The notes under the pieces were generated by a model. It was not told the origin of the DNA. It ran no database searches and was given only the letters and a program-made list of their open reading frames with translations. From Bacteriovorax stolpii (GTDB lineage: Bacteria > Bdellovibrionota > Bacteriovoracia > Bacteriovoracales > Bacteriovoracaceae): 55,439 nt of DNA. This document shows, in pieces, positions 43,279-54,676 of this stretch. The stretch spans positions 1 through 55,439 of the forward strand of contig CAMASK010000010.1 in assembly GCA_945860895.1 (NCBI GenBank). Direction: 5' to 3'. The position numbers and the translations under genes are program-made. Each line of letters opens with the position of its first letter. The stretch's first letter is position 1.

Positions 43279-44016
43279 ATGCGACTCAAGGCCTATGCAG
43301 CTCAAACTCACCAAGGTCCATATCTTCAGGTCAATGAAGATGGATATGAATTTGATTTTGAAAATGATTTATTCATGGTGCTAGATGGGTTTGGTGGTTC
43401 CGGAATAGGTGATCGGGCAGTAGAAAAATTAAAGACTGAAATTAAGACTTTCTATACCCAACTATCAGATGATCCAAATGCTACAATGCCCCTATATTAT
43501 AATCCACGAAATCTTCTGGAGGGGAATGCAATTTTAAACTCATTAATCAATGCTCATCAGAATTTATTTAAATCCAATTCAGAGAAACCAGTCAATCAAA
43601 GAGCAGGTTCTAGTGCCGTAGTAGCTGCTCGATCAGACAGTTTAATGGTGTTAGTTGGCGTGGGTAATTGCTGTGCTTATCATTATCGTCAGGGGACTCT
43701 TTCAAAAATTATTACGGAAGATACACTTAAATATCTGTCAAAAACCCAATTCGATAGCCGTTTTAGAACTTCACCCATGAATGCTATGGGAATGTATCCA
43801 GAGCTTGGCTATCAAATGCGTGAAGTTCGTTTGATGGAAGGGGACAAGATACTTTTGATGACAGATGGTCTTTTTGGCAGCATTTCTGAGAAAGAAATTC
43901 TTCATCATTTAAATCGCTCTGCTTCTGATGCACAAGAAAGAGTAAATAGTTTACTAAAACTATCCAACTCTCATGGCAATTTAGATAATCAAACTGCAAT
44001 GATTCTCGAGTTTTAA
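43279..44016 (+). CDS. PPM/PP2C-type protein phosphatase
   Basis: The 245-residue protein has the PP2C pattern: the metal-binding LFMVLDGFGGSGIGDRA near residue 32 (VADGMGG in most relatives), RAGSSAVVAARSDS, KILLMTDGLFGS and the end LDNQTAMIL, with Asp in the usual places. It should remove phosphate from Ser/Thr, the opposite of what the FHA domains read. It directly follows three FHA genes. No partner kinase is in the window. Confidence 0.85.
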   Translation: MRLKAYAAQTHQGPYLQVNEDGYEFDFENDLFMVLDGFGGSGIGDRAVEKLKTEIKTFYTQLSDDPNATMPLYYNPRNLLEGNAILNSLINAHQNLFKSNSEKPVNQRAGSSAVVAARSDSLMVLVGVGNCCAYHYRQGTLSKIITEDTLKYLSKTQFDSRFRTSPMNAMGMYPELGYQMREVRLMEGDKILLMTDGLFGSISEKEILHHLNRSASDAQERVNSLLKLSNSHGNLDNQTAMILEF

Positions 44017-46072: not shown

Positions 46073-46786
46073 ATGTCATTAATCAAGCGTGACACTCCTA
46101 GAGTCATTAAATTCACTCCCAATATCAATCCCTATGCTTATGGATCGGTCATGGCCGAATTTGGAAACACTAAAGTGCACATTACGGCTTCTGTTCAGGA
46201 ATCTGTCCCGCCTTTTCTTAAAGGCAAAGGTCAAGGTTGGCTGACGGCAGAATATTCAATGCTTCCTTCATCAACTCATACACGTTCTGAGCGTGAAAGA
46301 AAAGGTCCCTCTGGACGCACTCAGGAAATTCAGAGATTAATCGGTAGATCCCTTAGATCAATTGTGGATATGACTAAACTAGGCGAAAGAACAATCATGC
46401 TGGATTGTGATGTTATTGTTGCTGATGGTGGAACAAGAACAACTTCTATTTCTGGATCTTATGTTGCTTTAGAGATGGCAATTAGACGCTTAATGAAAGA
46501 GGGTCTTTTAAAGGAAAATCCTATCAAAGAGGGATTATGTGCTATCTCAATCGGAATTAATTCAAAAGATGAAGTCATAGCTGATTTAAATTACGAAGAA
46601 GATTCTACCTGTGGTACTGACATGAATATTGTAATGACCTCGAGTGGTAAATTTGTGGAAGTTCAAGGCACGGCAGAAAAAGAGCCTTTTTCAATGGCAC
46701 ATTTAAATGCACTTTTAGAATGCGCTCAAACTGCTCTGAAGGTTGTCATTAAAGAGCAACGTCTAGTCCTGGATTCTTTGAAGTGA
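46073..46786 (+). CDS. rph: Ribonuclease PH
   Basis: The 237-residue protein has [38 protein letters not shown] and the phosphorolytic-site region [17 protein letters not shown], all diagnostic of RNase PH. It trims tRNA 3' ends using phosphate. GAGG at 46064-46067 sets the start. rdgB overlaps its stop, a pairing common in bacteria. Confidence 0.97.
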
Positions 46787-47376
46787 AATCCTTTTTATTG
46801 GCCTCTGGAAATGCACATAAAGCTGAAGAATTTAAAGAGCTATTTTTAGATGCAATAAAGATATCTGCCGCGCTAAAATCAATTGAAATTGATGAATCCG
46901 GTGAGACATTCACCGAAAATTCTTTGCTAAAAGCGAAGGCTTATTTTAATACTTATAAAGTTCCTTCCATGGCAGATGACTCTGGTTTAGTGATTGAAGC
47001 CTTGCCGTCGATACTAGGAGTTCAGTCAGCGCGTTTTTCACCAGACCTGACCGAATATTCTCAAAAATGTACCAAGCTCATAGAAATGCTTGATTCTAGC
47101 AATTCAAAAGAACGCAAAGCTTACTTTGTTTGTGTCCTCTGTTTTTACCTTTCGCCTGAAGAAATTTATTTCTTTGAGGGCAGAGTTCATGGAACCATTG
47201 GAACAACATTGAAAGGGAATCAAGGCTTTGGTTATGACCCAATCTTCATTCCGGATAGGAAAGAAAACGATGGAAAGAGCTTAGCAGAGCTTCCGGAATG
47301 GAAAAATATGTTTTCGCATAGGGCTAAAGCTGTGCAATCTGCGCTAGAGTTCTTCAAAAGCAGTAAGAAAGCATAG
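46783..47376 (+). CDS. rdgB: dITP/XTP pyrophosphatase
   Basis: The 197-residue protein starts at a GTG overlapping the rph stop. It has [18 protein letters not shown] at the N-terminus, [12 protein letters not shown] near 66, [10 protein letters not shown] near 149 and SHRAKA near 183, the signature set of the Ham1/RdgB family. It removes non-canonical purine nucleotides such as dITP. The stop is 47 bases before the tRNA gene. Confidence 0.94.
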
Positions 47377-47423
47377 ACAAAACATACAAGAAGACTTAAA
47401 AATATTGCTCGTTCTTTAAGTGT

Positions 47424-47500
47424 CGGGGTGTAGCGCAGCCTGGTAGCGTATCTGCTTTGGGAGCAGGTGGTCGTTGGTTCGAATCCAATCACCCCGACCA
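47424..47500 (+). tRNA. tRNA-Pro (anticodon UGG)
   Basis: A full cloverleaf of 77 bases. The acceptor arms CGGGGTG and CACCCCG pair perfectly, discriminator A is followed by an encoded CCA, and the T arm contains GGTTCGAATCC. The anticodon loop TTTGGGA gives TGG, reading proline codons. A T-run follows and may end transcription. No integrase or repeat of its 3' end is seen, so it does not look used as an attachment site. Confidence 0.97.
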
Positions 47501-47566
47501 CTTTTTTTCCATCTAAAACAATCGAATTACTTTTCTAATCAATCTGAGACATTTAAAGAATCTTAA

Positions 47567-48283
47567 TTATTCAGCTTCTAAGAATAAAAAAGGAGCTTTG
47601 TTACTTTGCTGCTTAAAAAAGAAACAATATGACTCAGTCCATTCGCCAGCAAGGTGGCGAATGACTAAAAAGTCACAAAATTCTCTGACTAAATTTAGGC
47701 CAATACCTGCTCCGCCTTCATCCCGATTTGATCGAGGAGAAACAACTTCTTTAGTTATATTGAATAGAATCTGGGATTTTGCTGTCTTGGTTATGGCACC
47801 GTAGTGATCTTTTACAACAAGTACTTTGACTTCAGAATCTAAGTTTATAAAAACATCAATTGATTTTTGCTCAATCAGTTTAGCTGCTTTCGCTTTTAAT
47901 TTAGGATAAAGTGCATAAATCGCATTTGAAATTAATTCTTCTGAGCAATAAATCATTTTTTGTGCAATTGTTGGACGAACTTTTTCCATTATCTCAGTTG
48001 CAATTTTAGTAAGAATGGCTTCTTTACTATCTTGAGTCATACTCCAGTGAGCGGCATTTGGGATTATCTTACTCGAAGTTTCAAACACAGTTAATTTGAG
48101 AATCTTTTCAAGTATCTTTAAGACTTGTACATTTAATGAATCACAGGATAAAAGTGCGCTATCCATACCAATATCAGAATTTTCCAGATGAGTTTTAACT
48201 AATAACAAAGAATTTTTATTAGTTAAAACAACATTCTGTAAATTCTGAGGATGGTCAAAATATTCTTTAATTAATTTTAACAC
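47567..48283 (-). CDS. RsbW-like HATPase (candidate anti-sigma/serine kinase)
   Basis: The 238-residue protein has about 100 unassigned N-terminal residues and then a Bergerat ATPase fold. The N box is EELISNAIYALYP (Glu116, Asn120). Asp159 sits in a degenerate first glycine box (KDHYGAI), and the second box GGAGIGL (190-196) is intact. The fold fits RsbW/SpoIIAB serine kinases rather than histidine kinases, as no phospho-His domain is present. The start is a GTG overlapping the STAS stop by one base, so translation is coupled. A STAS protein right upstream is its likely partner. Kinase activity is uncertain. Confidence 0.7.
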   Translation of the reverse strand: MLKLIKEYFDHPQNLQNVVLTNKNSLLLVKTHLENSDIGMDSALLSCDSLNVQVLKILEKILKLTVFETSSKIIPNAAHWSMTQDSKEAILTKIATEIMEKVRPTIAQKMIYCSEELISNAIYALYPKLKAKAAKLIEQKSIDVFINLDSEVKVLVVKDHYGAITKTAKSQILFNITKEVVSPRSNRDEGGAGIGLNLVREFCDFLVIRHLAGEWTESYCFFFKQQSNKAPFLFLEAE

Positions 48284-48753
48284 TAAACTTTATTAATTTT
48301 TAAAAAATGAAAATATTTCTCGGGATGTGCATCAAAGTCTAACTTTTTACCAGCAGCATTTAAGACTATCGGTGGAAGTGCGCCACTTATATCTTTTGTA
48401 TTAATAAGATGTAGTGATTCTGATTCATCTTCAGTGTCAAAATATGGAGCATAAAAAGAAGTAACTTTAACATTTTCCGGTAAAAAACCAGCAATGATAT
48501 TCATTTGAGTCACAATGATAGGTGTACATTCCTCATACTTTAATACCATATTCGAAGGTTGTGCTTTAAGAAAATCGATCCATTCTCGAATGCCACATGA
48601 ATTGATCATCCCCAAATCTTTAAAATTGAAAGTGACATTAGTCAGACCATCAAGATTAAGATCTTTACGCCTGAAATCCTCATCAATTTTACCTGAAAGG
48701 TAGAATATTGATTCATCACCTTTTTTAACTAATTTATACTCTAACTTTCCCAT
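48283..48753 (-). CDS. STAS-domain protein (anti-sigma-antagonist-like)
   Basis: From the ATG at 48753 (AGGAG upstream, seven-base spacing) the protein has 156 residues. Residues 1-100 fit a STAS fold. The phosphorylation-loop region reads DLGMINSCGIREW: Asn51-Ser52-Cys53-Gly54 where RsbV/SpoIIAA have DS(S/T)G. A 50-residue tail beyond the fold is unassigned. It overlaps the CheA-like gene by 20 bases and the HATPase gene by one. In partner switching, the unphosphorylated STAS protein binds the HATPase. Confidence 0.75.
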   Translation of the reverse strand: MGKLEYKLVKKGDESIFYLSGKIDEDFRRKDLNLDGLTNVTFNFKDLGMINSCGIREWIDFLKAQPSNMVLKYEECTPIIVTQMNIIAGFLPENVKVTSFYAPYFDTEDESESLHLINTKDISGALPPIVLNAAGKKLDFDAHPEKYFHFLKINKV

Positions 48754-50416
48754 CTTCAATCTCCTCTGATGGCCAATCCATTTCCATAGTTAGAACACAT
48801 CCTTCATCTGATGAAGTATGCTGATGGAAGCCGTTTAGATCTTTTAATAATTCTTGTATAATCTGCATCCCAAGTCCACGACCTGAAATGAGATTAGGTG
48901 TTTGTTCTGTTTGTCGACTTATACCTTTGCCATTGTCAGTAATTTTGATCTTTAATCGTTCATTATCTTTTTTAAAATCAAAATTAATAATATTTTTCTT
49001 TTCATCGTTATCCCAAAAACCATGATCAACGACATTCCTTAAATAAAGTGTGAATACAGGTTGCAAAGTACGAATTATTTTGGAGTTTGTAGGTAATTCA
49101 GGTCCGCTCACATTAAAGGATTCAATTTTTTTGCCTAGTTGGCTGCAAATTTCAAAAGTAAAAGCTGAAAAAGATTGGATATATACATCCAATTTCATCG
49201 TCGCCATCGCCAACAACTCGTCGCGATAGGAGCTTCCAATTTTTTTAGCAAGTGATTTAATTTTTTCTTGGTTGATCCAAATGTGATTTCCGCTTGGAGG
49301 CAAACTAAGTGAATTTGAAAGCCGCAAATGAAGACTTTTGGTCATATCATTAAGATTTTTAAAAGCCTCATGCCAAGTATTTAATTCACAGTTTTGAAAA
49401 TCTTCTATTTTATGAGTCATTTTTTCCAATGCTTTCATTGAAAACAATGAATAACTTCCTTTAAGGCGATGAAGTATTTTCTTGAAAGATAATTCATCCA
49501 CTGATTTAGCATTTAGAAGACAATTTAATGAAAATTCTTGTTCTTCCACTGCACAACGATAGTTGAAAAGATTTGTTGCTACTTTGGTTAAATTTTTTTC
49601 AAATTCTTCAGTGGTATGGAGATCTTTCTCAAGTTCGATGATTCTTGTGATGTCTCTGCCAACAACGACAACTCCCTCAGCAGTAAGGTTTTCACTTCGT
49701 AGTGGAAAATATTTTAATTCAATATATGAGCCCTGAATAATAACGATCTGTGGACCAAGTTCTGCAATATCGTCGAAATTGATTTTTTCTTTTATTAGAT
49801 GTGTGATCCATCGACTTAGAAACTTTTTCTCATCTTCGGGAGCTGATATAATATCCCAAAAACTTTTTCCTTCAGGTGCAATTTTAAATATGCTGAGGCA
49901 GTTTGCAGAATGGTAGGGAAGGCATTTTCCTTCAGCATTCAAAACCAAGATAGCCTGATTCAAACTATCAAGCATTCCTGAAATAAACTGATTTGATTCT
50001 GATAATTCTTTCGTCCTCACTCGGACTTTTTCTTCAAGATTTCTAGAATATTCGGCTAGTTCATCAAGTTGCTTTTTATATTTATTATGAAGTTGAACCT
50101 CTACAGAATTGTCTTTCAATACTAGAATAATTTGGTCGTCTATTTTTCGAGAACCGAATAGACAGCTTCCTGTGATACCCGAAGGAATTATTGTAAATTT
50201 TGTTTCCTTAAAGGAAGAATCAAACAGATCAAAAGATGTAACTTGCTCAAACTTAATAAGATTGTCCAAATTAAGTGGATGATTAGTAAGTAAGCGCCGC
50301 TTGACGTCATATTGAGAAAGAAAAAGCTCATTGGCCGCAATGACAATATTACTGCCATCTACAACCAAAGCTGGCTCGGGGATAAATTCTAAAATCTTTT
50401 CACTATTTAAATTCAT
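48734..50416 (-). CDS. CheA-like histidine kinase with PAS domains, no CheW-binding domain
   Basis: The 560-residue protein has PAS1 (about 8-105), a coiled coil (about 108-142), PAS2 (about 145-262), an HPt-like segment with LHRLKGSYSLFS (His316), and a CheA-type ATPase: RNVVDHG (460-466), ITDNGKG (492-498) and SGRGLGM (511-517). It ends soon after the ATPase and so lacks the P5 domain that binds CheW. It should pass phosphate from His316 to a receiver, most simply the divergent CheY-like protein at 50435. No membrane segment is seen. Confidence 0.85.
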   Translation of the reverse strand: MNLNSEKILEFIPEPALVVDGSNIVIAANELFLSQYDVKRRLLTNHPLNLDNLIKFEQVTSFDLFDSSFKETKFTIIPSGITGSCLFGSRKIDDQIILVLKDNSVEVQLHNKYKKQLDELAEYSRNLEEKVRVRTKELSESNQFISGMLDSLNQAILVLNAEGKCLPYHSANCLSIFKIAPEGKSFWDIISAPEDEKKFLSRWITHLIKEKINFDDIAELGPQIVIIQGSYIELKYFPLRSENLTAEGVVVVGRDITRIIELEKDLHTTEEFEKNLTKVATNLFNYRCAVEEQEFSLNCLLNAKSVDELSFKKILHRLKGSYSLFSMKALEKMTHKIEDFQNCELNTWHEAFKNLNDMTKSLHLRLSNSLSLPPSGNHIWINQEKIKSLAKKIGSSYRDELLAMATMKLDVYIQSFSAFTFEICSQLGKKIESFNVSGPELPTNSKIIRTLQPVFTLYLRNVVDHGFWDNDEKKNIINFDFKKDNERLKIKITDNGKGISRQTEQTPNLISGRGLGMQIIQELLKDLNGFHQHTSSDEGCVLTMEMDWPSEEIEDGKVRV

Positions 50417-50434
50417 TTCAATTATTATATATCT
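50417..50434. promoter_or_regulatory. Overlapping divergent -10 boxes in an 18-bp gap
   Basis: Only 18 bases separate the two start codons. On the plus strand TATTAT (50423-50428) ends six bases before the ATG at 50435. On the minus strand TATAAT (50429 to 50424) ends seven bases before the ATG at 50416. The boxes overlap by five bases and neither gene has a Shine-Dalgarno sequence, so both transcripts may be leaderless. The -35 regions are poor. Confidence 0.5.
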
Positions 50435-50848
50435 ATGGCGATACCAAGAGAAATAAATATTTTAATTGTTGACGACTTCTATGCCACAAGAAAAACGTTA
50501 AAAAAATCTTTAAAAGCCCTTGGTTTTTGTGGTGAAATTTTTGAAGCCGATCAAGTTAGGCTGGCACGTGATTTACTTATAAATAATCCTCTATTTATAA
50601 AATTTGATTTTATCATCTCTGATGTTGATATGCCTGGAGAGTCCGGTTTAGATTTGCTTTCCTTTGTGAAGTCACATGACTCTTTTGCAAAGATTCCCTT
50701 TTTGATTCTGTCTGCCGTTACCAGCAAAAGTGTTGTGCTAGATGCAATTGAGAAAGGCGTGGATAGTTACATTCTTAAGCCATGGGATGACCAGTCTCTT
50801 TTAAAAAAGATGGAGAATTCTTGGGCCAAAGTAAAAGCTTCAAAATAA
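50435..50848 (+). CDS. CheY-like response regulator
   Basis: The 137-residue protein is a single receiver domain. Acidic pocket DD is at 13-14, phospho-acceptor Asp63 lies in ISDVDMPG, Ser93 is in ILSA and Lys115 in LKPW. It has no output domain. It is divergent from the CheA-like kinase and overlaps the HD-GYP-like gene by 28 bases, which makes these its likely input and partner. A leaderless start is likely. Confidence 0.92.
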   Translation: MAIPREINILIVDDFYATRKTLKKSLKALGFCGEIFEADQVRLARDLLINNPLFIKFDFIISDVDMPGESGLDLLSFVKSHDSFAKIPFLILSAVTSKSVVLDAIEKGVDSYILKPWDDQSLLKKMENSWAKVKASK

Positions 50849-52095
50849 TAGTTCTTGGAACTGATAATTTCTTCATAGAAGAAGTTATTTCTATTATCGG
50901 AATCAGACATCTTGGCAGTTGCGTTGTTTTAACAAATTTTGAAGAAGTGCAGGATCATTTTTCTCATTCTATTCCACCTGAAGGAATTATCATCCAATCA
51001 GGTCATCCTGATTTTCAGAATCTGCAAGATTATATTTTAACGAATGATTTAAATTTATTGATGACCATATTATCCCCTGATGACTTTATTAAAAAAATTG
51101 ATTCTTATTTTCTGGAGCTTAATAAATGGTTTTCTGAAGTTTCCTATCTTCCTGTTTTTTCAAATATGGCGGGATTTATTGGTTACACGCCTGTCGTTCT
51201 TTTTGTAAAAACGGATAAAATTTTCAAAGAGGCTGTCTCTGCAAAAACATTCATATCAGAAACAATGGCAAAAAAAATATTTCTTAAAGGTGAGGGTTTC
51301 TTTTTTATTAAAAAAGAAGATTATGCTTCGTACAAGGATAATTGGCAGGATGCAAGCCTTGCTTATTTTAAAAGCCAAATTTCAGTTGGTACTGTTTTGC
51401 ATGGACCTGTTTCAATTATTTTACCCGTTATCGAATCGAAGGCATTTCACGGGATTCCAGAGTCTGACCAATACTTACTGCGATCAGCATTGGAGAGGAT
51501 AGGTTTATTTTTAGAAAAATATCCAGAATTATCCACTTCAATTGAAAAGCTTCTAATGAAAAATAACTACCAGTTAAAGCATACTTCATTTTTGATGTGT
51601 ATGAATGTTGCAACCTTGTCTGCAATGGAGGTTGATTCACCGGTTATTTACTTTAATATGACTTTGGCAGGACTCATACACGATTTGGGCACAATCAATT
51701 ACGGATTTGAAGAATATGAGTTTCATGAATTCGCTATGTCGAAGGTCCTAGATGAAGAGACTATCAGCAGATATTCTAAACATGCTGAGCAGTCTTTATC
51801 ACTTTTACTAAAATATCAGGTTTGCCCCAAATGGATCGCTGAGATGGTATTATCACATCATGAGAATGATAGTGGTTTCGGTTATCCGCTTGGCATTCAA
51901 TCGTCTTCAATGGGTCTTGTAACTTTTATTTTTGCATTTAATCATGAATGGGCAGAAAAATTATATGGATATCTTTCCAAAGAAAAGCATAAATCAAGTC
52001 AAAGCTTTTTTGTCGAGTCTATGCCGACGAACTCCTTAAAGGCTTTAGATTTAAAGTCCAATATTTTGGAATACTTGAAAATTACTGCTCAATAA
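50821..52095 (+). CDS. Degenerate HD-GYP-type protein with N-terminal receiver-like region
   Basis: The TTG start at 50821 has GGAG at 50812-50815 inside the CheY-like gene. The 424-residue protein opens with a receiver-like fold that lacks the acidic pocket. The C-terminal half has His254, HD (287-288), His321 and HHENDSGFGYP (346-356), the order of metal ligands in HD-GYP domains. The Gly-Lys pair after HD is replaced (HDLGTINYG). It may hydrolyse c-di-GMP or be an inactive binding form. It overlaps the stop of the FecR-like gene by 14 bases. Confidence 0.7.
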   Translation: MGQSKSFKIIVLGTDNFFIEEVISIIGIRHLGSCVVLTNFEEVQDHFSHSIPPEGIIIQSGHPDFQNLQDYILTNDLNLLMTILSPDDFIKKIDSYFLELNKWFSEVSYLPVFSNMAGFIGYTPVVLFVKTDKIFKEAVSAKTFISETMAKKIFLKGEGFFFIKKEDYASYKDNWQDASLAYFKSQISVGTVLHGPVSIILPVIESKAFHGIPESDQYLLRSALERIGLFLEKYPELSTSIEKLLMKNNYQLKHTSFLMCMNVATLSAMEVDSPVIYFNMTLAGLIHDLGTINYGFEEYEFHEFAMSKVLDEETISRYSKHAEQSLSLLLKYQVCPKWIAEMVLSHHENDSGFGYPLGIQSSSMGLVTFIFAFNHEWAEKLYGYLSKEKHKSSQSFFVESMPTNSLKALDLKSNILEYLKITAQ

Positions 52096-52996
52096 TAATC
52101 GTATCTTTTATTTTAAACGGGTTAAACGGGGGTTCAGGCACAGGTACAGGTACAGGTACAGGTACAGGTAAAGGCTCAGGTATAGGTTCTGGGACAATTA
52201 TAGGCTCAGGTTTAGTTATACAGTGAGATGGCACAGCAACTTCACGCCAAACCGAGTTTACTGAATCGGCCACTGACCTTAATTCAATTAATGATTTTTT
52301 TGTTGGAAGGTTAACTTGCATATTGGTTAAAATAAGATCCTGTCCATCAGCTCTGATTTGATAGCGAACATCGCCAGTATCACTTTCTATAGGTTTCAAC
52401 CTGCCAATGCATGTCGCCCCAAAACGGTCTACAATAATGGTAGGGGGGGATAACAAAAAATATTCAGTGAGTACATTGTCTTTCAAGATGAGTGAATAGG
52501 GTTCACCTTCAGCGATCCATGATTTTTTCCACGTCGTTGGAGTTTCTACTAAACCATTTTGAGTTGTTTCATAAAGCATTCCAGGTTTTACGATTTGCGA
52601 ATTACCATTTTTATCAGAAATTTTAAGGGCTCCATCTGGATTAAGAACCATGAATTTGCCCTTACTCACCTGAAGTTCATCCTTTGGCAGGAACTCAACG
52701 AGAGAGTCATCTAAAGAAATGATTTGGAATTTGTTCAAATATAGGTACCTGGCCGACGATTCTTTGCCTGTAAAGCCCAGGCCATAAGCATTTATTTTCT
52801 CTTCTTCTTCTCCCGTGTACCAGGCAACGCTTCCGGTCATTTTAGTCTTAACAGATTTTTTCACAAACGTAATTTGAGCTACGATATTCTTAAAGTCGCT
52901 GCCCTTTTTTTTTCCGGTGGAAAAAAACCAAAAAGAAGCTAATATGAGAATACAACCAATGCTTATAAGGACGTTATCTATGTATTTGGGAGTCAT
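52082..52996 (-). CDS. FecR-like membrane protein with proline-rich tail
   Basis: The 304-residue protein has one N-terminal membrane segment (about 8-27) and an exported beta-rich region (35-140). The pattern there (GLGFTGKESSARYLYLNKFQIISL) resembles the FecR/LysM-type sensing fold. The C-terminal part ends in a proline-rich stretch with repeated Pro-Val and Pro-Glu. It lacks the usual FecR cytoplasmic anti-sigma part and no ECF sigma factor is nearby. AAAAGG lies five bases before its ATG, within the start of the divergent SpoIIE gene. The two start codons abut. Confidence 0.55.
   Translation of the reverse strand: MTPKYIDNVLISIGCILILASFWFFSTGKKKGSDFKNIVAQITFVKKSVKTKMTGSVAWYTGEEEEKINAYGLGFTGKESSARYLYLNKFQIISLDDSLVEFLPKDELQVSKGKFMVLNPDGALKISDKNGNSQIVKPGMLYETTQNGLVETPTTWKKSWIAEGEPYSLILKDNVLTEYFLLSPPTIIVDRFGATCIGRLKPIESDTGDVRYQIRADGQDLILTNMQVNLPTKKSLIELRSVADSVNSVWREVAVPSHCITKPEPIIVPEPIPEPLPVPVPVPVPVPEPPFNPFKIKDTIIIEQ
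52135..52170. repeat. Hexanucleotide microsatellite (CAGGTA) in the FecR-like gene
   Basis: Five perfect copies of CAGGTA at 52141-52170 follow one variant copy (CAGGCA) at 52135-52140. On the minus strand they encode a (Pro-Val)n run. Copy-number change stays in frame, so it would lengthen or shorten the proline-rich tail without breaking the gene. Confidence 0.95.
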
Positions 52997-54676
52997 ATGA
53001 GCCTTTTCAACACGCTTAAATTTAAAATACTTTTTGCTAAGTTAATTCTATGCCTAGCTTGTCTGGGCACAAGCTTTTTCTTTATTTCTAATCTTTTTAT
53101 CGATGAAAAAAAAACCGATATATTTGAAGTTGGTCTTTTAAGATCGAAACTTATCCTCTCCGAATATGAGTCCAAGTTCAGAATTGCCACTCTTTTATAT
53201 GAAAATCATAAAGTAGGACAGTCTGTTATTGGTGGAATGGATGGATTGGAAGAAGTTATTTCTTGTAATGGTACTGAAGCCATTGAAAAGAGTTTTAGGT
53301 CTTACAACTTGCCGATTTGCCCAGGTGTAAAAGCTTTAAGAACTGCTGGGGGTTATTTTGTTATTTCTTTTTATAAAGAAGCTTCAGGGGCTAGTTATTT
53401 TTTTAAATTATCCCAGCAGAATCGCGCAGGACTTGAATCAGGCGTTTCTTCTTTTTCCATTTTAGATGAGTCTAGTCAGAAAGTTGTTTATGCTGATACT
53501 GACAAACCTTTGCATGGGGAAATTAGTAAATTAGGTAACGATAATTTGAATTTTGTAAAAGAGATTAAAATTAAAGACGATGATTACCTCGCAGTAAGCG
53601 TAAAATCACCGGGTTTGTCTTGGCGCTCTTTTTTATTTTATAAATCTGAAATTGTTTTCCAGGCATTGAAACAGGTTAGGATGCAAATATTTTCCCTCTC
53701 TTTATTTATGACCGGGATCATTCTTATTGTTTCCTTGCTTTTATCAAACCATCTATCTGCTCCTATTAATCAACTCACTCATTTGGCGGGTGCAATTAAG
53801 GAGGGAGATTTTCTTCAAAGATTTAGTGGTAAAGTTTACGGAGAATTTCGTCTACTTGGTGAGACATTTAATGCGATGGCAGATAAAATTATCTTTTTTC
53901 TTGATGAAATGAAAGAAAAAACACGACTTGAATCAGAAGTGGCTGTTGCTCAACTCGTTCAATCTTCATTCTTTCCCAAATCGACTTATATAGACGATCA
54001 GCTACAGATCCACGGGTTTTATCAACCGGCAAGCGAATGTGGTGGTGACTGGTGGACCTTTCAAAATCATGGCGACAGAGTTTATTTTGCCTTGGGAGAT
54101 GTAACCGGTCATGGCGTGGCTTCATCTTTAATTACAGCTTCAGTCCATTCTTATTCCAGTCTTTGGTCGCGCATATTTGGAGAAGATAACAGTCAAATGC
54201 TAGAGCCATCTTACATCTTGGAAGGTTTTAATCAGGTACTCCGCGGTGCTGGTGGAAATTTAAATATGACAATGTTTGTTGGTTGTTATGATCGGAAAAC
54301 AAAATTATTAACTTACGCTAATGCCAGTCATGAACAACCGTTTTTGGTGAATTCTTCAAGCAAAGAAGACATAAAATTTCTGGATGGAATTTCTGGTCCT
54401 CGTTTAGGTCAGGAGGTAGCACCAACATACAAGCAGTTTTCAGAAATATTATCTGATAACTCCTTCATCGTCTTGTATTCGGATGGTTATACAGAGGGAC
54501 TAAATGAGGAAGGGAAATATTGGGGTGAAGGTCGTTTTTTAAGAGAACTTGCAAAAAATTATTCATCAGGAAAATCAGAAGGAATGAATGAAGGAATTAA
54601 TTCCGGCTTTAAGAAATTTGCCGGATCTTCTGATCAAGCAGATGATCTATCACTTTTAACACTATTTATAAAATAG
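52997..54676 (+). CDS. HAMP-SpoIIE (RsbU-type) protein phosphatase
   Basis: The 559-residue protein has TM1 (about 11-34), an exported sensor-like domain (35-228), TM2 (about 230-252) and HAMP (253-305). The SpoIIE/PPM phosphatase domain (about 335-559) shows CGGDWW (Asp351), LGDVTGHGVASSL (Asp368), YSDGYTEG (Asp496) and DQADDLSLL (Asp549/550). All metal-binding Asp residues appear present. Such enzymes dephosphorylate STAS proteins. GGGAG lies four bases before the ATG. Its start codon abuts that of the divergent FecR-like gene. Confidence 0.9.
   Translation: MSLFNTLKFKILFAKLILCLACLGTSFFFISNLFIDEKKTDIFEVGLLRSKLILSEYESKFRIATLLYENHKVGQSVIGGMDGLEEVISCNGTEAIEKSFRSYNLPICPGVKALRTAGGYFVISFYKEASGASYFFKLSQQNRAGLESGVSSFSILDESSQKVVYADTDKPLHGEISKLGNDNLNFVKEIKIKDDDYLAVSVKSPGLSWRSFLFYKSEIVFQALKQVRMQIFSLSLFMTGIILIVSLLLSNHLSAPINQLTHLAGAIKEGDFLQRFSGKVYGEFRLLGETFNAMADKIIFFLDEMKEKTRLESEVAVAQLVQSSFFPKSTYIDDQLQIHGFYQPASECGGDWWTFQNHGDRVYFALGDVTGHGVASSLITASVHSYSSLWSRIFGEDNSQMLEPSYILEGFNQVLRGAGGNLNMTMFVGCYDRKTKLLTYANASHEQPFLVNSSSKEDIKFLDGISGPRLGQEVAPTYKQFSEILSDNSFIVLYSDGYTEGLNEEGKYWGEGRFLRELAKNYSSGKSEGMNEGINSGFKKFAGSSDQADDLSLLTLFIK

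Follow-up and report, generated by a model that had tools for sequence, protein, structure and literature searches.

Gene content of the locus

The window analyzed here is a stretch of 55,439 nucleotides, one contig (CAMASK010000010.1) of the 2.79 Mb draft genome of Bacteriovorax stolpii. Near its end lies a cluster of signalling genes that combines a STAS partner switch with a histidine kinase and a receiver. An earlier note on this DNA described five genes at 47567-52095 as a CheA/CheY phosphorelay joined to a STAS-HATPase switch. These genes are open frames at the positions and strands described, and frames, Pfam matches and folds agree on a STAS protein, an RsbW-like HATPase, a PAS-PAS-HPt-HATPase kinase, a receiver and an HD protein. 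The range left out two members of the gene set, which encode the FecR-like protein (52082-52996) and SpoIIE (52997-54676). All evidence comes from sequence and predicted structure. The features are listed below, with PAS1 as the first domain of the kinase.

47567..48283, minus strand: SpoIIAB/RsbW-like HATPase, 238 residues, GTG start; weak Pfam match, invariant columns, best fold match SpoIIAB
48283..48759, minus strand: STAS protein of SpoIIAA/RsbV fold with a C-terminal extension; start at ATG 48753 or TTG 48759
48734..50416, minus strand: PAS1-coil-PAS2-HPt-HATPase (CheA P4-like) kinase, 560 residues; Pfam and alignments
50111..50416, minus strand: PAS1 domain, kinase residues 1-102; common to STAS-linked proteins with different catalytic parts
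49982..50110, minus strand: PAS1 junction and coiled coil, kinase residues 103-145; alignments
49277..49549, minus strand: HPt domain, about kinase residues 290-380, phospho-acceptor His316; Pfam and alignments
48770..49159, minus strand: CheA P4-like ATPase domain, about kinase residues 420-549; RNVVDHG, DNGKG and SGRGLGM kept
50435..50848, plus strand: CheY-like receiver with Asp63 and Lys115; Pfam and alignment
50821..52095, plus strand: HD-domain protein (HD_5), no domain assigned to its N-terminal part; Pfam and profile
52082..52996, minus strand: FecR-like protein, 304 residues; homolog of the gene divergent from SpoIIE in other cassettes
52997..54676, plus strand: HAMP-SpoIIE (PPM) phosphatase; Pfam and conserved Asp residues

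Two of the gene overlaps described before, of 1 and 28 bases, were found again. The third measures 20 bases, as described, if the STAS protein starts at ATG 48753, and 26 bases with TTG 48759. Fixed stoichiometry, which had been read from these overlaps, was rejected, as they suggest translational coupling only. The receiver and kinase genes are divergent, with 18 bases between their starts.

The Pfam scan covered eight window proteins. It supported PAS_4, Hpt and HATPase_c in the kinase, Response_reg in the CheY-like protein (E 5e-19) and HD_5 in the HD protein (E 2e-9). No sigma factor was matched among the eight proteins, and no genome-wide search was made for one. They also include no chemotaxis protein besides the CheY-like receiver, and no RsbR/RsbS-type sensor-STAS protein (no genome-wide search was made for these either). 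The 238-residue protein has a weak HATPase_c match (E 0.003, under the cut-off), and Pfam finds no family for the STAS protein; with Pfam weak or absent, both assignments were settled by fold matches. The STAS model (44 sequences) has a predicted local distance difference test (pLDDT) score of 91.7, and its best solved matches in Foldseek are SpoIIAA/RsbV structures (1thn_B, E 1.7e-4; 6m36_B, E 4e-4). The HATPase model, with a mean pLDDT of 69 and residues 14-50 below 50, is good in its core only. Its top match is SpoIIAB (1til_E, E 1.3e-4); ranks 1-6 are anti-sigma kinases, rank 7 is human PDK4, and histidine kinases appear from rank 13.

The catalytic residues are kept. The stand-alone HATPase of SpoIIAB/RsbW fold has the N-box Glu and Asn (E116, N120) and glycine motifs (D159-x2-G162, G191-A-G-x-G195), all in invariant columns of 37 rows, and presumably acts as the Ser kinase on STAS. 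Ser54 of the STAS protein lies in the motif I-N-S-C-G-I-R and is invariant in 22 rows collected by profile and protein searches; we take it to be the phosphorylation site by analogy with SpoIIAA. The window SpoIIE protein has the metal-binding Asp residues of PPM phosphatases: D351, D368, D496 and D549 are among the residues kept in at least 95% of 59 aligned sequences. Its N-terminal region appears membrane-anchored and periplasmic. It presumably dephosphorylates the STAS protein, with the FecR-like protein as its presumed periplasmic partner. D63 and K115 of the receiver are kept in 58/58 sequences. His316 of the HPt domain is invariant in 8/8 proteins and present in 36 of 37 aligned rows, the 36 that cover the site. 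The window kinase keeps this residue and the ATPase motifs of CheA type; its ATP lid is shortened.

The HD protein had been called a degenerate HD-GYP protein. This holds for the Lys of HDxGK, which is missing in the window protein, but not for most His/Asp positions (at HHExxDGxGYP the window protein reads HHENDSGFGYP); H254, HD287-288, H321, HHE346-348, G352, G354 and P356 are common to all four aligned proteins. Pfam HD_5 in the HD protein of another locus, L025, has E 0.03.

The cassette and its PAS1 domain across Bdellovibrionota

A scan of genome contigs with the STAS alignment covered 84,980 species and gave 223 relatives, the best 80 of which were kept as named loci (L numbers) with 955 frames. 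These 80 are the best matches of one scan pattern. The pattern fixed INSCG, and Ser conservation among them is no independent evidence. The profiles were built from our own loci, and some of the proteins that they detected had been used to build them. All distances come from draft contigs, and several of these are cut near the cassette. Matches to the kinase profile occur in 72 of the 80 loci, to SpoIIE in 59, to HATPase in 62, to the receiver in 64 and to HD in 5. A frequent gene order is SpoIIE, HATPase, STAS, kinase and receiver. Among the 77 loci whose STAS frame was kept, a same-strand SpoIIE, HATPase or both lie upstream of STAS in 67, and a same-strand kinase-profile protein lies downstream in 49. 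The HATPase is on a frame other than the PAS1 protein in 61 loci; in L091 it is found only on the PAS1 protein. Clustering is thus kept across distantly related genomes, as the earlier note expected in holding that the phosphorelay and the partner switch belong together.

Nearly every SpoIIE gene (58/59) has a divergent upstream gene. This gene is a Pfam FecR in L097, L116 and L025, and not in L105, L022 or the window. A profile of the divergent genes matches the 304-residue window protein (E 2.7e-13), alone among 60 window frames. Three kinds of fusion tie parts of the cassette together. SpoIIE and HATPase form one protein in many Halobacteriovorax-like loci, both profiles matching the gene before STAS in 17 loci (in L097 the fusion is seen by Pfam); a HATPase-STAS fusion occurs in L175 (417 residues); and a PAS1-GGDEF protein is joined to a HATPase-profile region in L091 (706 residues). 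Absence of the HATPase from Bdellovibrionaceae was considered and rejected, since its relatives are encoded elsewhere in those genomes, in B. bacteriovorus with a cyclic-nucleotide-binding domain. In the Bdellovibrio bacteriovorus kdesi genome, this is a 475-residue HATPase with the cyclic-nucleotide-binding domain in front (L184:868-2295), away from the SpoIIE-STAS locus and the only strong HATPase of the cassette family found there. A cyclic nucleotide may feed the switch of B. bacteriovorus.

Some parts vary. The HD protein, proposed before as the output, has a strong profile match in only three of the 80 loci (L083, L096, L100) besides the window, with 28 and 14 bits in two further loci. 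Its strong relatives were found only in window-type cassettes, and we rejected it as a general output. Downstream in two cassettes (L098:10848-12791 and L116:8572-10494) there is a receiver-DUF4388 protein that also contains DnaJ or TPR parts, and receiver-profile genes of similar size follow in many loci; it is a candidate output. Two zinc-ribbon-like CxxC pairs occur in the C-terminal extension of 9 of 44 STAS proteins (e.g., L097, L101, L103, L143); the window protein has none. A plasmid search with the window kinase gave no match.

The proteins adjoining STAS have their first ~100 residues, PAS1, in common and not the remainder. The PAS1 profile matches one protein each in 72 of the 80 loci across different catalytic types; it was built on HPt-type kinases, which are about half of these matches. 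The eight loci without PAS1 are L085, L090, L094, L102, L121, L142, L148 and L154, and the genome of L085 (G005 among the genus genomes below) has a PAS1-GGDEF protein on another contig. Pfam was run on 67 of the 72 proteins, leaving out five short or cut ones, and found HATPase_c in 57, Hpt in 29, HisKA in 27, Response_reg in 21, GGDEF in 5 and Guanylate_cyc in 2. Four kinds of output thus stand behind PAS1: HPt with a CheA-like ATPase, a HisKA kinase, GGDEF and a class III cyclase. Pfam matched no CheW-like P5 domain in the window kinase, in L098 or L116, or in the families of the 67 PAS1 proteins.

N29, E71, E106 and K112 are invariant in 67/67 PAS1 proteins (numbering follows L082, whose alignment to the window kinase is gap-free in that region). 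E106 and K112 fall in a junction motif, D-x3-E-x2-L-x2-K-Y, which in the window kinase is D102, E106, L109, K112 and Y113. PAS domains commonly end in the D-x-T part of this junction. The strict motif is present in 59/67 PAS1 proteins and in 62 of the 955 neighbourhood frames, and all 62 are PAS1 proteins. As a control, we inspected 15 loci with PAS2-HPt-P4 kinases (L007-L021) and 1.5-kb flanks. The 13 kinases without STAS in the flanks are all without PAS1 as well, and the two with PAS1 (L008, L011) are STAS-adjacent. A STAS tree of 81 rows, with 70 of them labelled and 36/77 inner branches weak, calls for 5 or more changes of output type, against a possible minimum of 3.

The earlier note made its proposal depend on conserved co-occurrence in related genomes. 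STAS and the PAS1 of the kinase do co-occur genome-wide. A STAS profile of eight proteins (E 1e-4) found relatives in 249 of the 368 phylum genomes searched. A strong PAS1 match was defined as E<1e-8, with a search alignment of 23 rows that includes proteins of some of the genomes searched. Both were found in 166 genomes, PAS1 only in 4, STAS only in 83 and neither in 115 (Fisher p 3.5e-35, with no correction for kinship); STAS is thus present in 166/170 PAS1 genomes. Among 26 genomes of the genus (G numbers), both occur in the identical 16 and neither in the other 10. Of the 23 strong PAS1 matches there, 17 have a STAS gene no more than 5 kb away. The other six are proteins of 306-336 residues; the three scanned are PAS-GGDEF proteins and the remaining three have a similar C-terminal ending. 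Six weaker PAS1 matches (1e-7 to 3e-4) lie away from STAS. A cassette-type SpoIIE (E<1e-28) was found in 4/4 STAS-positive and 0/4 STAS-negative genus genomes tested.

The window genome has a single STAS protein of the cassette family and, on contigs C37 and C70, additional members of the HATPase family, together with a PAS1-GGDEF protein on C76 (L166; PAS-GGDEF by Pfam, GGEEF intact). The link to cyclic di-GMP (c-di-GMP), which the earlier note drew through the HD protein, is better supported by the PAS1-GGDEF proteins.

The nearest named relatives of the STAS protein are in metagenome-assembled genomes of a Halobacteriovorax sp. (72% identity) and of Bacteriovorax stolpii (69%). Two genus genomes have orthologous cassette genes. 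G001 (L022) has the phosphatase, FecR-like, HD, receiver, kinase and STAS genes in the window order at 59-80% identity. G022 (L023), whose contig begins at the kinase, has the kinase at 69%, STAS at 72% and the HATPase at 40%. A reciprocal HATPase loss, with one type in the window and the other in G001, was dropped because of the HATPases on C37 and C70. Kinase and STAS genes adjoin at 23-39% identity in G007, G025, G017 and G011, and in G054 of another family. SpoIIE-like and HATPase-like genes are near the pair in these four genus genomes; in G017 both matches are on one 352-residue frame near the contig end, and in G025 the HATPase was found by profile. G025 (L025, L172, L173, L178) has eight STAS matches of the cassette family in several loci with different neighbours, and an alpha/beta hydrolase-like gene lies beside its kinase in L025.

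The window cassette sits just after two genes (46073-47376) that we take to encode RNase PH and RdgB, with a tRNA-Pro gene at 47424-47500. At the corresponding site, G005 has a PAS1-GGDEF gene, flanked by six genes in the same order (54-89% identity), and in G025 a STAS gene and a PAS1-HATPase-receiver kinase have these six genes as neighbours. One chromosomal site thus carries different PAS1 outputs in three genus genomes (window 46073-47567, L167:3568-6108, L173:5673-9107), and the site after the presumed RNase PH/RdgB genes is a possible exchange hot spot for PAS1 cassettes. A 245-residue phosphatase-like frame at 43279-44016, 3.5 kb before the cassette, has a weak SpoIIE-family match (E 6e-6); it is kept in G001 and G022, and at the corresponding site in G005 and G025.

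Candidate targets of the partner switch

We propose, with a probability of roughly 0.6 on the sequence evidence, that the locus is a SpoIIE-RsbW-RsbV-type partner switch with a PAS1-bearing signalling enzyme, not a sigma factor, as its target. The target, which the earlier note left unnamed, is most likely the PAS1 protein itself, because four outputs, the kinase among them, are interchangeable behind PAS1. With four output kinds there, the simplest common step is an input from the switch to PAS1.

The usual gene order reads like a signalling order: FecR-like protein, phosphatase, HATPase, STAS, PAS1 enzyme and receiver. A periplasmic signal, probably involving the FecR-like protein, would alter the HAMP-SpoIIE phosphatase. 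The RsbW-like HATPase would phosphorylate Ser54 of the STAS protein and the phosphatase would remove that phosphate. The switch would then alter the PAS1-coil module in one of two ways: free STAS may draw the HATPase off PAS1, or dephosphorylated STAS may bind PAS1. The L091 fusion favours the version in which the HATPase holds PAS1; the version in which STAS binds it gains support from the gene order and from the HATPase being encoded separately in Bdellovibrionaceae. In the window, the candidate target is the PAS-PAS-HPt-CheA-type kinase, which would autophosphorylate at His316 and pass the phosphate to Asp63 of the CheY-like protein. The PAS1-GGDEF protein of the same genome is a probable second target, and c-di-GMP may be made under the same control.

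Several observations weigh against a PAS1 target. A strong PAS1 match is missing in 83 of the 249 STAS-positive genomes; some STAS proteins of the family would thus have other partners, or their PAS1 is too divergent. Only 12 of the 20 PAS1 matches below 1e-8 are within 5 kb of STAS in the 11 genomes to which named loci led; of those below 1e-20, 10/11 are, and the 11th is at a contig end. SpoIIE, HATPase and PAS1 occur together in only 41 of the 80 loci, some cut by contig ends. The main STAS locus has no adjoining HATPase in seven Bdellovibrionaceae-type genomes (L102, L116, L126, L144, L153, L157, L160), and G001 lacks the window-type HATPase and keeps another. The HATPase part of L091 was detected by our own profile and not by Pfam, which detects GGDEF and PAS there. 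Pfam does not match FecR in the window FecR-like protein, and the Foldseek E-values of the STAS and HATPase models are modest (~1e-4). Output types mostly follow lineage on the STAS tree, which argues against many independent events. The kinases of L096, L100 and L026 keep the HPt His and have lost the DxGxG and GRGxG motifs. The PAS1 target there may not be an active kinase; these proteins may act in phosphotransfer or as scaffolds, controlled by STAS. Finally, PAS1, being a PAS domain with a common junction part, could be an independent sensor.

The partner switch may instead control a sigma or anti-sigma factor elsewhere, with the PAS1 protein a co-expressed cluster neighbour. The fold matches point to classical SpoIIAB/RsbW proteins, whose binding partners are sigma factors. 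In Pseudomonas aeruginosa, HsbR-HsbA regulates RpoS according to an excerpt of PMC6482189, and HsbA also contacts a cyclase in the available part of PMC5085249. We consider this explanation unlikely, since PAS1 co-occurs with STAS even when unlinked (the six PAS1 matches in the genus) and stays with STAS through exchanges of the catalytic part. The HATPase-profile region joined to PAS1-GGDEF in L091 also stands against it, as does the lack of a sigma factor match among the window cassette proteins scanned, for which no genome-wide search was made.

About as unlikely is PAS1 as an independent input, for example of redox or a ligand, with the enzyme parallel to or upstream of the switch in one shared process. 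PAS domains are usual sensors, and kinase paralogues elsewhere have other N-termini. However, the invariant residues include the junction that would relay the signal to the output, and four kinds of enzyme upstream would need several routes to SpoIIE/STAS where a shared PAS1 input needs one. Each domain family of the cassette is common in bacteria, which would speak for a chance neighbourhood of signalling genes; with PAS1 in 72 of the 80 loci, the Fisher test above and the identical presence and absence in the 26 genus genomes, we regard chance as very improbable.

Comparison with known systems

The cassette resembles the SpoIIE-SpoIIAB-SpoIIAA and RsbU/RsbP-RsbW-RsbV switches of Bacillus in its three folds and families, its expected Ser phosphorylation and PPM dephosphorylation, and its kept catalytic residues. 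Unlike these, the cassette proteins scanned include no sigma factor, and a PAS1 enzyme is the proposed target. The FecR-like gene divergent from a HAMP-type SpoIIE and the extra C-terminal part of STAS are further differences. The window kinase is like CheA chemotaxis kinases in its HPt domain with His and its CheA-type P4 ATPase motifs; it differs in having PAS domains in front and in lacking a Pfam match to a CheW-like P5 domain.

In its logic, the cassette has its closest precedent in the RsbQ-PAS module, as far as described in the available part of PMC3183031. There, an RsbP-PAS is joined to PPM, histidine kinase or diguanylate cyclase outputs, and a partner-PAS interaction was shown. In both cases a partner gene lies beside a most N-terminal PAS with a coiled coil that is joined to several outputs. 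The partner differs, being a STAS/HATPase switch in the cassette and not an alpha/beta hydrolase; no RsbQ-like hydrolase was found upstream of the window kinase, where the neighbours are the STAS and receiver genes. The cassette outputs add an HPt-CheA-type kinase and a class III cyclase, and no PPM output was seen.

STAS systems on non-sigma targets have precedents in stressosome loci with varied targets (an excerpt of PMC9237108) and in HsbA-HsbD (PMC5085249, in the part available). The same excerpt of PMC9237108 places STAS and HATPase proteins next to GGDEF or two-component proteins rather than next to a sigma factor, and a section of PMC4976288 mentions a Moorella cyclase. Stressosomes use RsbR/RsbS complexes and RsbT, unlike the cassette with its single STAS, RsbW-like HATPase, HAMP-type phosphatase and shared PAS1 target. 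The window SpoIIE matches the SiaA model with E 2e-15, far below the cut-off of the model. To our knowledge, SiaC is not of the cassette STAS family and SiaABCD has neither a kinase target nor a PAS1. The HsbR phosphatase-kinase carries a receiver, with the relay upstream; in the cassette, the kinase is the likely target. The P. aeruginosa system HptB-HsbR-HsbA-HsbD is similar in combining a phosphorelay, a partner switch and a cyclase that contacts a STAS-type anti-anti-sigma factor (part of PMC5085249). SiaABCD of the same species is similar in its HAMP-PPM phosphatase, switch kinase, small antagonist and GGDEF target (parts of PMC8457831 and PMC7647112). No description of the cassette was found among the literature matches listed.

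A wider reading, which we hold tentatively and at somewhat less than even odds, is a phylum-wide chassis in which a membrane Ser-phosphatase and STAS/HATPase plug into a dedicated PAS1-coil socket and the enzyme behind it is swapped in evolution among a CheA-type HPt kinase, a HisKA kinase, a diguanylate cyclase and a class III nucleotide cyclase. In the window, Ser phosphorylation of STAS would then directly set a CheW-less CheA-type kinase. If true, Ser/Thr and His/Asp phosphorylation would be joined in one step. PAS1 enzymes are a specific candidate target for the STAS and SpoIIE proteins of Bdellovibrio-like bacteria and may be a further case for how partner switches reach non-sigma targets. 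The cassettes amount to a natural swap experiment, with one input module and four enzyme kinds, in which the docking surface would be what stays constant. If the proposal is true, periplasmic signals would be tied to kinase and c-di-GMP signalling in predatory bacteria.

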